Shown here: positions 1,759-15,060 of the stretch, piece by piece | How the letters are laid out: each line of letters begins with the position of its first letter | Position numbering within the stretch: the stretch's first letter is position 1 | Assembly: GCA_017471185.1 (NCBI GenBank) | Contig: JAFUVZ010000062.1 | Span: 1 to 42,278, forward strand | Source: Bacteroidaceae bacterium | Lineage (GTDB): Bacteria > Bacteroidota > Bacteroidia > Bacteroidales > Bacteroidaceae | Length of the DNA stretch: 42,278 nucleotides | Direction of reading: 5' to 3' | Translations under genes and position numbers: made by a program | The notes under the pieces: model-generated | What the model was told of the DNA's origin: nothing | The model's input: only the letters and a program-made list of their open reading frames with translations | Databases searched by the model: none

Positions 1759-2015
1759 AAAAGCGTTTACTATGCGCTTTGTCTTTAGCTACTTCGAATC
1801 TCGCAAGTTTGAATCACAGTTAAAGAGCAAAGCAACAGTAGATGCCTATTGGGTATGTTTTATGATTTTTTGAATTCGGCAGTCAGTTATGGCTGACGGA
1901 ATTGTCATATACATATCGGCGTGGGCTTCTGCGTTGCTCGTTCAACTGTGATGGGCAATGCGAGAGCCTCGAAGTAGCGGGACGAGTAACAGGTACAGAC
2001 TCCCGCGCTTTTTTT
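1759..2015 (+). ncRNA. Structured 5' leader RNA, copy L1 (six nested helices, terminator-like 3' end)
   Basis: Helices seen directly: P0 1759-1765 / 2006-2012 (AAAAGCG/CGCTTTT); P1 1788-1797 plus 1799-1804 with 1960-1965 plus 1969-1978; P2 1813-1821 / 1944-1952 (ATCACAGTT/AACTGTGAT); P2a 1825-1830 / 1934-1939; P3 hairpin 1872-1903; P4 1978-1982 / 2001-2005. CGTGGGCT lies at 1920-1927, before the P2a 3' strand. P4 is followed by seven T (2009-2015), so P4 plus tail can act as an intrinsic terminator. P0 would sequester that tail, while AAAGCG (1760-1765) can alternatively pair with CGCTTT (1775-1780). The fold is repeated with different sequence at 13152-13325. A 22-codon ORF (1755-1823) overlaps it. 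Confidence 0.7.
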
Positions 2016-13079: not shown

Positions 13080-13109
13080 TTGTCTTTTCAAATTATTCAC
13101 TACATTTGC
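13080..13109 (+). promoter_or_regulatory. Bacteroidetes-type promoter for leader L2
   Basis: TACATTTGC at 13101-13109 is a full -7 box. TTG at 13080-13082, 18 nt upstream, is a partial -33. TGAAGGA...TCCTTCA (13113-13132 region) forms a hairpin at the expected transcript start. Confidence 0.5.
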
Positions 13110-13151
13110 ATTTGAAGGATACGATTCCTTCATGACATCGTGGATTTTTAT

Positions 13152-13325
13152 AAGAAGCGTTATGCTTATCTTGTAACTTGGGAACGTAGGAAACTTTCAA
13201 GTAGGATACAAAGAAGGCATGATGGTTCTCACGCTATAGCGTGGGCTGCTATCACTACATCTGTATCCAAGGTTATTCCTACGACCTCCAAGTTTAGAAG
13301 TGGCATAGTCAGTGCCACGCTTCTT
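13152..13325 (+). ncRNA. Structured 5' leader RNA, copy L2 (same fold as L1)
   Basis: Helices: P0 13152-13159 / 13318-13325 (AAGAAGCG/CGCTTCTT); P1 13175-13181 plus 13185-13192 with 13276-13283 plus 13288-13294; P2 13204-13210 / 13262-13268 (GGATACA/TGTATCC); P2a 13220-13225 / 13249-13254 (one wobble); P3 13230-13243 (CACGCTATAGCGTG); P4 13300-13305 / 13313-13318 (GTGGCA/TGCCAC). CGTGGGCT is at 13240-13247. Order and nesting equal those of L1, while nearly every paired base differs. No T-run follows P4 here, but a further hairpin with a pyrimidine tail lies at about 13343-13370, just before the coding start at 13378. Confidence 0.7.
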
Positions 13326-13377
13326 CATTAAGATTAGTTGTTGTCTTTCGGCATTGAAGACTAACCTTTTATTATTT

Positions 13378-15060
13378 ATGAAAGCACTGAAAAGAATTGC
13401 TTATGCTGCCTGTCTGTCTATCGCTTTCGTCTTATCCGGCTGCTCTGACAATGAACTACAGAATGATGAAAGTGTTATCAGTCATGAAGATGTCAAAACA
13501 TTTAGCAGCTTTAATGTGTCCGTTGAGGATTCTCCCGTCACTCGTGCCCATTTGGAGAATGGAACGCAAATGGTGTGGGATGAGGAAGATGTGATTGGGG
13601 TGTATAGTGATAAGGAAGGTGTGGTTCCCTTTACTTACGCTGGTAATAACACTTTCACTTCTAAAAAACCAGTTAGCGGAACGAAGTTCTATGCTTATTA
13701 TCCGTATAATGAAAACAATGTTGCAGATGCAAACAATAAAGGAACTGTCTTCTTTACGCTTCCCGAACTTTTTACTGACGACAGAATTGCTAACGCCATG
13801 CCAATGGTTGCTGTAAGTAATGACAATAACTTGCATTTTAAGCAAACTGTTGGCCTTATGCACTTCACATTGGGAGGAGAGCAGCATATCCTGGGGGTGA
13901 AATATGAAAGTAAAGGGCATGAATCTGTAGCAGGATCTATGATTGTAAAGATGCTGGATGACGAACCGATTATGAGTCCTACTGAAGGGAATGTTACAAC
14001 TTTAGTTAAGATTGAATGTGACATTACTTTAGGAGCAGACGAAACAAAAGATTTCTATTTTCCCGTTCCTGCCGGCTCCTATACAGAAGGTTTTGTGCTC
14101 TCTATAGAAACACCTGAAGGCACGTTCTTCAAGTCAAAGAATGCCCCCATGGATATAACAAGAGCGAAAATACATAGCTTCCCTGCGTTTAAGACTGACC
14201 GATATTCCATCGAGCGTGAGTCGCTTGTGGCACTCTATAATTCAACCAATGGAGAGAGCTGGACTAATAAAGAAGGATGGCTTACTGACAAGCCGCTGGG
14301 TGAGTGGTATGGAGTTAAAACGGATGGAGATGGGTTTGTGTCAGAGATAAACCTAAATTTAAATAATCTATCAGGCGTGCTTCCTGTAGAAATCGGTAAT
14401 TTCAATAGATTGGAGTATTTATACATTCAAGGAAATCCTGAACTTACAGGAAATATACCTTCGTCTATTGGGAATCTGTATAATGTTAAGCGGTTAGAAT
14501 TTGCTTCTAATGATTTGACTGGGAATATACCTTCTTCTATTTGTAATTTAAGTAAACTTTTGATTCTCAATCTATCTGGCAACAAACAGCTGACAGGTCC
14601 TATCCCAGACAATCTTGCAGGCTTAAGAATGATAAATAGGTTTTATATTGAAGGATGTAATTTGACAGGTTCAATACCTGAAAGTATTGGCGACATTGGT
14701 AGTGGTTACGATCCTTCAAACCATTGGATAATGATAGGTTTATCACGTAATTCACTTACTGGACCTATACCTGCCAGTCTTGCAAAACTGAAGAATTTTG
14801 ACTCTTTAAATTTAAGCTACAATCAGTTGACGGGTTCTATTCCCGATGAATTCTTGTCAATCAGTAGTTTGGCTGATTTTTGGATTAACAATAATAATAT
14901 GGATGGCGTTATTTCTAAAGAATTGCAGGCTTGTTCTTGGTGGAATGGTAGTATTGACATCACTCAAAATGAAGGGCACAAGCTTACATTAGAAGAAAAA
15001 GAGGATGTTAATATTGGAAACATTGAAGATTTAGGAAATGGTGGGACGCAAGACTGGTAA
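13378..15060 (+). CDS. Surface lipoprotein: fimbrillin-like domain plus leucine-rich repeats
   Basis: The protein has 560 aa. ATG 13378 gives signal peptide II with lipobox VLSG-C22 followed by the acidic SDNELQNDE, compatible with the Bacteroidetes surface-export signal; the longer ORF start would place the signal internally and is rejected. Residues 25-280 resemble fimbrillin-like N-domains (TRAHLENGTQMVWDEEDVIG, FYAYYPYNENN, DFYFPVPAGSY). Residues about 285-530 hold plant-type LRRs (LTGNIPSSIGNL, LTGPIPASLAKL, LTGSIPDEF). The LRR part probably binds a ligand outside the cell. It pairs with the next lipoprotein, 18 nt downstream, and is headed by leader L2. Confidence 0.85.
   Translation: MKALKRIAYAACLSIAFVLSGCSDNELQNDESVISHEDVKTFSSFNVSVEDSPVTRAHLENGTQMVWDEEDVIGVYSDKEGVVPFTYAGNNTFTSKKPVSGTKFYAYYPYNENNVADANNKGTVFFTLPELFTDDRIANAMPMVAVSNDNNLHFKQTVGLMHFTLGGEQHILGVKYESKGHESVAGSMIVKMLDDEPIMSPTEGNVTTLVKIECDITLGADETKDFYFPVPAGSYTEGFVLSIETPEGTFFKSKNAPMDITRAKIHSFPAFKTDRYSIERESLVALYNSTNGESWTNKEGWLTDKPLGEWYGVKTDGDGFVSEINLNLNNLSGVLPVEIGNFNRLEYLYIQGNPELTGNIPSSIGNLYNVKRLEFASNDLTGNIPSSICNLSKLLILNLSGNKQLTGPIPDNLAGLRMINRFYIEGCNLTGSIPESIGDIGSGYDPSNHWIMIGLSRNSLTGPIPASLAKLKNFDSLNLSYNQLTGSIPDEFLSISSLADFWINNNNMDGVISKELQACSWWNGSIDITQNEGHKLTLEEKEDVNIGNIEDLGNGGTQDW

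Follow-up and report, generated by a model that had tools for sequence, protein, structure and literature searches.

The window analyzed here, a stretch of 42,278 nt from contig JAFUVZ010000062.1 of a Bacteroidaceae bacterium, contains two leaders, L1 and L2, which the first-pass annotation had described as copies of one covarying structured RNA class with the same set of helices. This raises the question of whether the two are indeed related RNAs, how widespread such a class would be, and what a leader of this kind might do for the gene that it precedes.

Structure of the two leaders

We verified the coordinates and letters of both leaders, including the helices as earlier described, on the sequence. 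The parts of L1 are as follows, with H0 and S1 denoting helices that compete with the P helices and K the pairing between P4 and the loop of P5.

1688-1695, +: promoter -7 element TATATTTG, of the type TAnnTTTG
1700-1748, +: region of the 5' hairpin, ahead of GACATA, seen in the class alignment
1759-2015, +: L1 leader
1759-1765, +: 5' strand of P0, AAAAGCG, which doubles as 5' strand of H0
1775-1780, +: 3' strand of H0, CGCTTT, the local competitor of P0
1776-1781 with 1828-1833, +: alternative helix S1, GCTTTG with CAAAGC
1788-1805, +: 5' strand of P1, with the conserved internal loop
1813-1821, +: 5' strand of P2, ATCACAGTT
1826-1845, +: 5' strand of P2a, near-invariant across the class
1846-1918, +: variable hairpin P3
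1920-1927, +: unpaired conserved word CGTGGGCT
1944-1952, +: 3' strand of P2, AACTGTGAT
1959-1978, +: 3' strand of P1
1978-2005, +: hairpin P4, CGGGA (1978-1982) with TCCCG (2001-2005)
1996-2004, +: 3' strand of P4, CAGACTCCC, the K site for the P5 loop
2006-2012, +: 3' strand of P0, CGCTTTT, within the T-rich tail
2009-2015, +: T-run, a terminator-like tail
2028-2053, +: hairpin P5, with the loop GGGGTGTCT (2038-2046) facing the 3' strand of P4
2064-3983, +: first gene of the L1-led operon, a Sel1/TPR protein (start 2064 or 2085, same frame)

L2 shows a matching set of helices, with an inner hairpin in addition.

13101-13108, +: promoter -7 element TACATTTG
13114-13131, +: 5' hairpin GAAGGA/TCCTTC, aligned across the class
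13152-13325, +: L2 leader
13152-13160, +: 5' strand of P0 and of H0, conserved
13161-13174 with 13205-13220, +: alternative helix S1
13175-13186 with 13192-13206, +: inner hairpin
13175-13194 with 13272-13294, +: P1
13204-13210 with 13262-13268, +: P2
13221-13254, +: apical hairpin with CGTGGGCT (13240-13247)
13300-13318, +: hairpin P4, with the K site CAGTGCC (13310-13316)
13317-13325, +: 3' strand of P0
13343-13361, +: hairpin P5, GTCTT/AAGAC, with the loop GGCATTG (13350-13356)
13378-15060, +: L2-led gene; start from the sequence, leucine-rich repeats from a domain scan

Taken alone, the L1 region folds to -116.6 kcal/mol (z -7.9) and the L2 region to -77.4 kcal/mol (z -4.6), energies that were equaled by 0/100 and 0/200 dinucleotide shuffles, respectively. 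The overlap of the P0 3' strand (2006-2012) with the tail of L1 (2009-2015), noticed earlier, is confirmed by these coordinates, while the promoter, the 5' hairpin, P5 with its pairing to P4, the alternatives S1 and inner hairpin and the size of the family go beyond what the first-pass annotation had described. Upstream of L1, at 1500-1580 of the window, the intergenic region carries a palindrome with arms resembling ggttcgctt..agcgaacc, as judged by eye.

Homologues of L1 and L2

Because two copies alone cannot give statistical covariation, we used homologues of both leaders (the genome that holds the window is counted throughout). With L2 as query, BLAST yielded matches, some of them short, in 21 of 61 genomes, with at least 12 in one of them, and most of the copies found carry the apical hairpin; with L1 as query it yielded matches, many partial, in 58 of the 99 genomes searched within the genus. 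The covariance model search that had been proposed in the first-pass annotation found further copies across the order and the class. Of the 198 genomes searched in the window's order, 58, belonging to 46 of 150 genera, contained copies recognized by model R1, which was built from L2; one genome had at least 14, as many as the candidates scored in it. Across the phylum R1 found copies in 17 of 296 genomes, 16 of which belong to the same class outside the order (38-74 bits). Model R2, built from the 3' half of L1, detected the leader in 17 of the 150 genera of the order, with 20 of the 198 genomes searched being positive. E-values from both models are rough, and the copy numbers are lower bounds because at most 7 to 19 candidates were scored per genome.

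A pattern scan of named genomes gave at least 119 L2-type stretches, with contigs of Bacteroides, Phocaeicola, Prevotella, Alistipes, Parabacteroides and Muribaculaceae among the matches and one contig labeled Clostridia (L042); the isolates B. faecis MAJ27 and B. gallinarum DSM 18171 are among the carriers. The taxon name Bacteroidota used below is taken from the named contigs, and on the same ground we take the order to be Bacteroidales. The leader was also found on ten virus-labeled contigs, seven plasmid records and one phage record. Since the L2 loci of the named-genome and virus scans were picked by the apical pattern, its invariance among them is no evidence for conservation. The word CGTGGGCT is likewise present in most of the distant copies that we read, which had themselves been located through it or a close variant.

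The 130 pattern matches included 122 with sufficient flank, which together with the window made 123 L2 sequences. Both ends were recognizable in 109 of these, and 46 remained at 85% non-redundancy, 45 after dropping L139 for its length and 44 in the alignment (A2) after dropping the mis-bounded L126; both dropped sequences were kept in the 46-sequence K, permutation and P5 tests. For L1 we obtained 30 loci and used 25, as L181, L184, L187, L188 and L191 were without an exact anchor; alignment A3 holds 20 of the 25.

Covariation

The covariation nulls were computed with custom scripts, not with R-scape. For L2 we applied an APC-corrected G-test to all column pairs of 88 sequences at 95% non-redundancy, with a Fitch/tree null of 20 simulations. 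Twelve column pairs reached E≤0.05, ten of them in P1 and P2 and the other two off-by-one neighbors in P1; four more pairs at E 0.15 were cross-combinations within P1. In a strand-swap test, each sequence's own strands were compared with strands exchanged between sequences, and the result was set against simulations under a tree null. Among the 44 aligned L2 sequences P1, P2, S1 and the inner hairpin each gave 0/100, compared to 58/100 and 44/100 for unrelated control segments. No support was obtained in this test for H0 (107/200), P0 (31/200), P4 (95/200) or the apical stem (37/200) of L2. A permutation version with 46 sequences gave 0/2000 for S1, P1 and the inner hairpin and 1315 and 1203 of 2000 for the controls; P2 with other strand limits gave only 33/2000.

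The same swap test on the 25 L1 sequences, to which no redundancy filter was applied, yielded 0/200 for H0, P1, P2 and P3, 1/200 for P0, 2/200 for K and 6/200 for S1, the last being weaker than the other helices, with 114, 96 and 24 of 200 for three unrelated control segments. The L1 5' hairpin gave 14/200 on the difference, with an unstable null. P4 (45/200) and P2a (174/200), both near-invariant, found no support. Thus the claim of a covarying structured leader class holds, with P1 and P2 covarying in both subtypes under tree-aware nulls. Among the six helices assigned earlier to L1, P0, P1, P2 and P3 covary, and it is only P2a and P4 that lack such support.

Among the pairs predicted by RNAalifold for L2 we counted 245 G-U cells vs 6 A-C cells; three invariant columns account for 132 of the 245, which leaves 113 vs 6. 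Such an excess of G-U over A-C would be expected of an element that functions as RNA of the leader strand.

A separate observation concerns columns 37-41 of alignment A2, within the P1 stem, where the 44 aligned copies read either TAGG (23) or TGAG (21). Both forms contain a stop codon; we do not read them as such, since the codon is broken in several distant copies.

L1 and L2 as subtypes of one superfamily

The relation between L1 and L2 was shown with model R2, which was built from L1 only and matches L2-type elements. On 58 L2-type loci (361 kb) it gave 23 hits at E≤10, of which 22 fell on the element. These on-element hits cover 21 of the 58 loci (best E 1.8e-5), leaving 37 loci without such a hit; 18 of the hits lie on the same strand over the 3' half of the element and 4 on the opposite strand. 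The reverse test fails, as R1, built from L2, does not recognize L1 as a whole. Both alignments have in common the GCGTT past the P0 strand, the word CGTGGGCT, the 3' strand of P4 and a P1 internal loop of AA(A) against RCCT, in line with the internal loop that had been noticed at the same place in the two window copies. Because the L1-built model matches L2-type elements, L1 and L2 are homologous and represent two subtypes within a single superfamily of structured leader RNAs; the first-pass annotation had put them together as well.

We also found that 5 of 29 L1-led genes have homologues among 119 L2-led genes, and the subtypes therefore lead overlapping gene families. The led proteins of L180 and L075 are 45% identical over 181 aa and those of L189 and L109 53% over 66 aa, while for the protein led by L175 the homology to an L2-led protein is confined to 85 aa within a longer sequence.

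Competing helices and the order of folding

Several of the helices exclude each other. H0 competes with P0, S1 competes with H0 as well as with P1/P2, and the inner hairpin takes up the 5' strand of P1. The competing helices also covary: H0 does so in L1, S1 in both subtypes (in L1 at the 6/200 given above) and the inner hairpin in L2. The local competitor of P0 postulated earlier is hence borne out for L1 (H0, 0/200), but its counterpart in L2 is not (107/200). Equilibrium folds of truncated RNAs, which stand for the growing transcript and do not represent kinetics, passed through the same order in both window copies, that is H0, then S1, then P2/P1 with H0 again, and P0 last, and in L2 the inner hairpin accompanies the S1 step. 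S1 is predicted in L1 transcripts of about 138-222 nt, and the S1/inner-hairpin fold of L2 is predicted to dominate in transcripts of about 120-150 nt. The final step of L1 is weak in these folds, with fewer than 4 expected pairs for P0 and near 0 for P4. K amounts to about 0 in L2 and to a transient 3 pairs in L1, in folds in which pseudoknots cannot be drawn. A conserved structured leader with alternative folds is what one would look for in a riboswitch, and the covariation of the competing helices points to such folds in this class; the leader may well work like a riboswitch or an attenuator.

The output end of the leader

The 3' strand of P4, which reads CAGTTCC in many L2 copies and CAGATTCCC in most aligned L1 copies, is complementary to the loop of P5. 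In L2 this K pairing is stronger between a sequence's own strands than between swapped ones (-10.1 vs -8.3 kcal/mol; 0/2000 permutations, without a tree null), the own pairing being better in 33 of 46 copies and no better than the swapped mean in 13. The partners change together, as in CAGTTCC/GGAACTG, GGCTC/GAGCC and CAGTACC/GGTACTG, and the P5 stem itself prefers its own partner over swapped ones (0/2000 in L2, 1/2000 in L1). With a cut of -7 kcal/mol and enough flank we scored 39 of 46 L2 and 23 of 24 L1 copies as K-positive, so that K is frequent, though not universal. In the L1 copy of the window, the pairing between P4 and the P5 loop contains one mismatch, as judged by eye.

The P5 loop ends 12-29 nt ahead of the ATG in 31 of 37 L2 copies, and for L1 the corresponding distance is 17-29 nt in 16 of 22; the outlying values are mostly negative, the simple rule having taken an ATG upstream of the loop. 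Start 2064 of the L1-led gene agrees with this spacing. That this spacing varies so little ahead of genes which are for the most part unrelated suggests that the initiation of translation is affected.

Regarding the tail after P4, 6-9 T of 10 were counted in 25 L1 copies. In contrast, the count in L2 was 3-5 T of 8 for 33 of 45 copies and 6-7 for only 11. From the strong T-tails of L1 and the mostly weak ones of L2, termination is plausible chiefly in L1. A simple terminator scan called one site, at P4 of L2, and none in L1, where the 18-nt loop of P4 exceeds the 3-8 limit of the scan. The transcription-attenuating layout proposed earlier would thus fit the L1 tail and finds little backing in the L2 tails, and given the spacing of P5 to the start codon, a translational output is at least as well supported as termination. 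A terminator as common output of the class was considered and dropped, as the weak T-tails do not support it for most L2 copies.

Ahead of the leader, TAnnTTTG occurs 57-86 nt upstream of P0 in 21 of 25 L1 copies (control stretch 4/25) and 25-100 nt upstream in 41 of 45 non-redundant L2 copies (control stretch 2/45). We take this pattern to be the Bacteroides -7 box. Promoters of the -7/-33 type are mentioned in the literature. Upstream of the promoter the sequence is unconserved in the L2 class.

Led genes and mobile contexts

The next ORF (≥100 aa) lies on the same strand in 79 of the 87 L2 copies with enough flank. The genes led by the class are very diverse: 119 L2-led genes fall into 68 families, and 107 led proteins match 51 Pfam families, the commonest of which, Zn_ribbon_2, occurs in 9. 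In a PADLOC scan of the 107 led genes, 24 models were matched, each by one member. No pathway common to the led genes that would name a ligand was found among the 119 L2-led genes or the 107 proteins by Pfam. Such diversity is not what one would expect of an ordinary metabolite riboswitch and would favor a general signal or a protein partner. Export-like N-termini, judged by a crude pattern proxy, are enriched among the led proteins (62/97) relative to other ORFs of the same loci (218/727; odds ratio 4.1, p 1.9e-10).

In the window, the domain scan identified a Sel1/TPR protein and an outer-membrane barrel, which fits the envelope operon of the first-pass annotation as far as this locus is concerned, although across the class the led genes are highly diverse. 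For nine window proteins NCBIfam gave matches only far below the curated cut-offs. The L2-led protein (13378-15060) we take, from its N-terminus, to be lipoprotein-like with a fimbrillin-like start, and other L1 copies that we read precede genes that, from their translations, presumably encode a DUF805-like protein, a Big_2-like lipoprotein and a nucleotidyltransferase-like protein; two partial L1 copies are without a called ORF. R1 found four L2 copies in the genome of the window itself, and the proteins encoded behind them resemble each other in their N-terminal parts (by eye). One contig of this genome (C24, L205) carries a pair of L1-type leaders separated by about 0.7 kb, one of which matches over only about 41 bases, lies ahead of a nucleotidyltransferase-like gene and looks truncated.

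Some copies lie directly behind mobilization genes. The six upstream proteins scanned comprise Mob_Pre at L045 and L153, a Relaxase at L062, one acetyltransferase and two without a family. On plasmid pBUN1 (L163, 4001-4174 and 4219-5127) an L2-type leader follows a MobV relaxase gene and is itself followed by blaMUN-1, a beta-lactamase gene, and from this position it is therefore probably part of the blaMUN-1 transcript. In a second plasmid the leader follows toprim and a hypothetical gene and precedes DUF4433; the other plasmid regions (six were opened in all) comprise two with hypothetical or DUF6088/AbiEii genes and two that are unannotated. A family of proteins of about 467 aa ends about 50-70 nt upstream of four leaders (L073, L074, L149 and L154); the single member scanned has no Pfam match, and the family perhaps represents an undescribed mobilization protein.

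A possible mode of action

The reading that we favor, at about even odds, is that the class is a cis-acting structured 5' leader switch of Bacteroidota in which a relay of refolding steps gates translation. According to such a model, the transcript would begin just upstream of the small 5' hairpin, as the promoter pattern implies, and the emerging RNA would exchange H0, S1 (with the inner hairpin in L2), P2/P1 and P0, as predicted by the folds. The end state would decide whether the 3' strand of P4 stays within P4 or pairs with the P5 loop, and the state of K and P5 would in turn gate the start of translation of the led gene; in L1-type copies, the T-rich tail would provide transcription termination as a putative second output. 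A signal acting at the conserved internal loops might bias the exchange; it could be a small molecule, but a protein or a general cellular state would be the likelier one because the led genes are diverse. A broader proposal, which we put forward only tentatively, is that of a plug-in leader, one switch with two or more subtypes that dozens of unrelated genes for accessory or exported proteins have captured and that is partly mobile, placing acquired genes under a common cellular signal via a co-transcriptional strand-exchange relay ending at the start codon.

Two of the alternatives likewise assign the function to the RNA. If P4, together with P0, were an intrinsic terminator, the leader would set the read-through, and an RNA of about 260 nt might be released as an sRNA. 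L1 copies do end in GCGGGA..TCCCGC followed by the strong T-tail, the P0 3' strand is the T-run itself with H0 as its competitor, and P4 of L2 carries the terminator-like site; the mostly weak L2 tails and the absence of a called terminator in L1 (though its P4 is excluded by the loop limit) speak against this, and the spacing of P5 to the ATG would be left unexplained, so that we regard transcription attenuation as rather unlikely to be the explanation. A platform binding a conserved trans-acting factor, either a protein or RNA polymerase, through which the expression of accessory genes is promoted or silenced, would account for the diversity of the led genes and their export-like N-termini, for copies on plasmids, on virus-labeled contigs and behind mobilization genes, and for the conserved nucleotides of the internal loops. 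Refolding would then be incidental and covarying alternative helices would not be needed, yet such helices are present, and we treat the platform as a possibility short of an even chance.

The mobile contexts and dispersed copies also bring to mind a DNA-level mobile or recombination element, such as an attC-like hairpin or a MITE carrying gene cassettes, the more so as L2 is quasi-palindromic (the reverse complement of 13152-13325 scores 32 bits with its own model). A promoter pattern and a start codon at nearly fixed spacing, the gene on the same strand in most copies, the G-U excess over A-C and the unconserved sequence upstream of the promoter all speak against this, and we consider it very unlikely. 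We would give hardly any credence to a leader-peptide attenuator, in which the conserved NTG of L2 (GTT-ATG/TTG/GTG) opens an ORF of 4-9 codons: such an ORF is found in 45 of 46 non-redundant L2 copies, but the start codon is absent from the L1-class alignment and from several distant copies, changes of its N accompany the S1 pairing (by eye), and the stop is lost in several distant P1 stems.

Comparison with known systems

The first-pass annotation could not match the leader to a known riboswitch, and likewise no Rfam 15 family matched the elements of the window or of the sampled loci. At gathering score there were 0 matches in the whole window, and at E≤10 only a chance snoR60 hit at L1 and L2 (14 bits, 40 needed). 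For 20 L1/L2 loci at gathering score the only two hits, RNase P and DUF805b, fall off the element, and 14 divergent loci at E≤1 gave seven sub-threshold hits, none on the element core. The DUF805b cis-regulatory RNA (RF02914) is located at L194:208-242 on the minus strand, with an L1-type copy about 1.3 kb away. A second match to DUF805b, below threshold, lies at L219:1919-1954, also on the minus strand, just 3' of the leader core at about the position of P5.

Searches of the open-licence PMC literature returned no title on this leader class among the matches listed, and matches to strings of the leader sequence were unrelated by title. Among structured RNAs of Bacteroidetes, Table 1 of PMC2864571 gives Rfam numbers for Bacteroidales-1, Bacteroides-1, Bacteroid-trp, 6S-flavo and Flavo-1; the library searched presumably includes these RNAs, yet the leader matched none of them, whereas Bacteroides-2 and GUCCY-hairpin have no Rfam number in that table and hence stand outside the comparison. 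The FopS sRNAs of Bacteroides (PMC11697453) are likewise a multicopy family, reported from a phage as well. Going by their description, however, they are trans-acting RNAs of about 65-70 nt, and the leader comprises about 170-260 nt and is located ahead of genes. Fremin and Bhatt (2021, PMC8040213) listed 3161 candidates; those described are palindromic intergenic RNAs of Bacteroidetes of 106-132 bp with predicted terminators, including HMP2_4205 near TPR genes and HMP2_1032 near TonB, and, comparing by description only, pieces of the leader class may already be contained in this list. A flavobacterial transcriptome paper reports 64 structured 5' regions. With regard to an output at the start codon, Bacteroidia ribosomes are described as not recognizing Shine-Dalgarno sequences (PMC9976891).

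Neither the Rfam searches nor the PMC matches listed contained a structured leader class common to so many unrelated genes. One leader ahead of lipoproteins, regulators, conflict-system genes and a plasmid beta-lactamase would amount to a common control layer for acquired functions. Like riboswitches and attenuators, it combines mutually exclusive covarying helices with conserved loop nucleotides and a possible output near a terminator or start codon; unlike them, it belongs to no Rfam family, its led genes share no pathway, and it has a long-range pairing between P4 and the P5 loop at nearly fixed spacing to the AUG.
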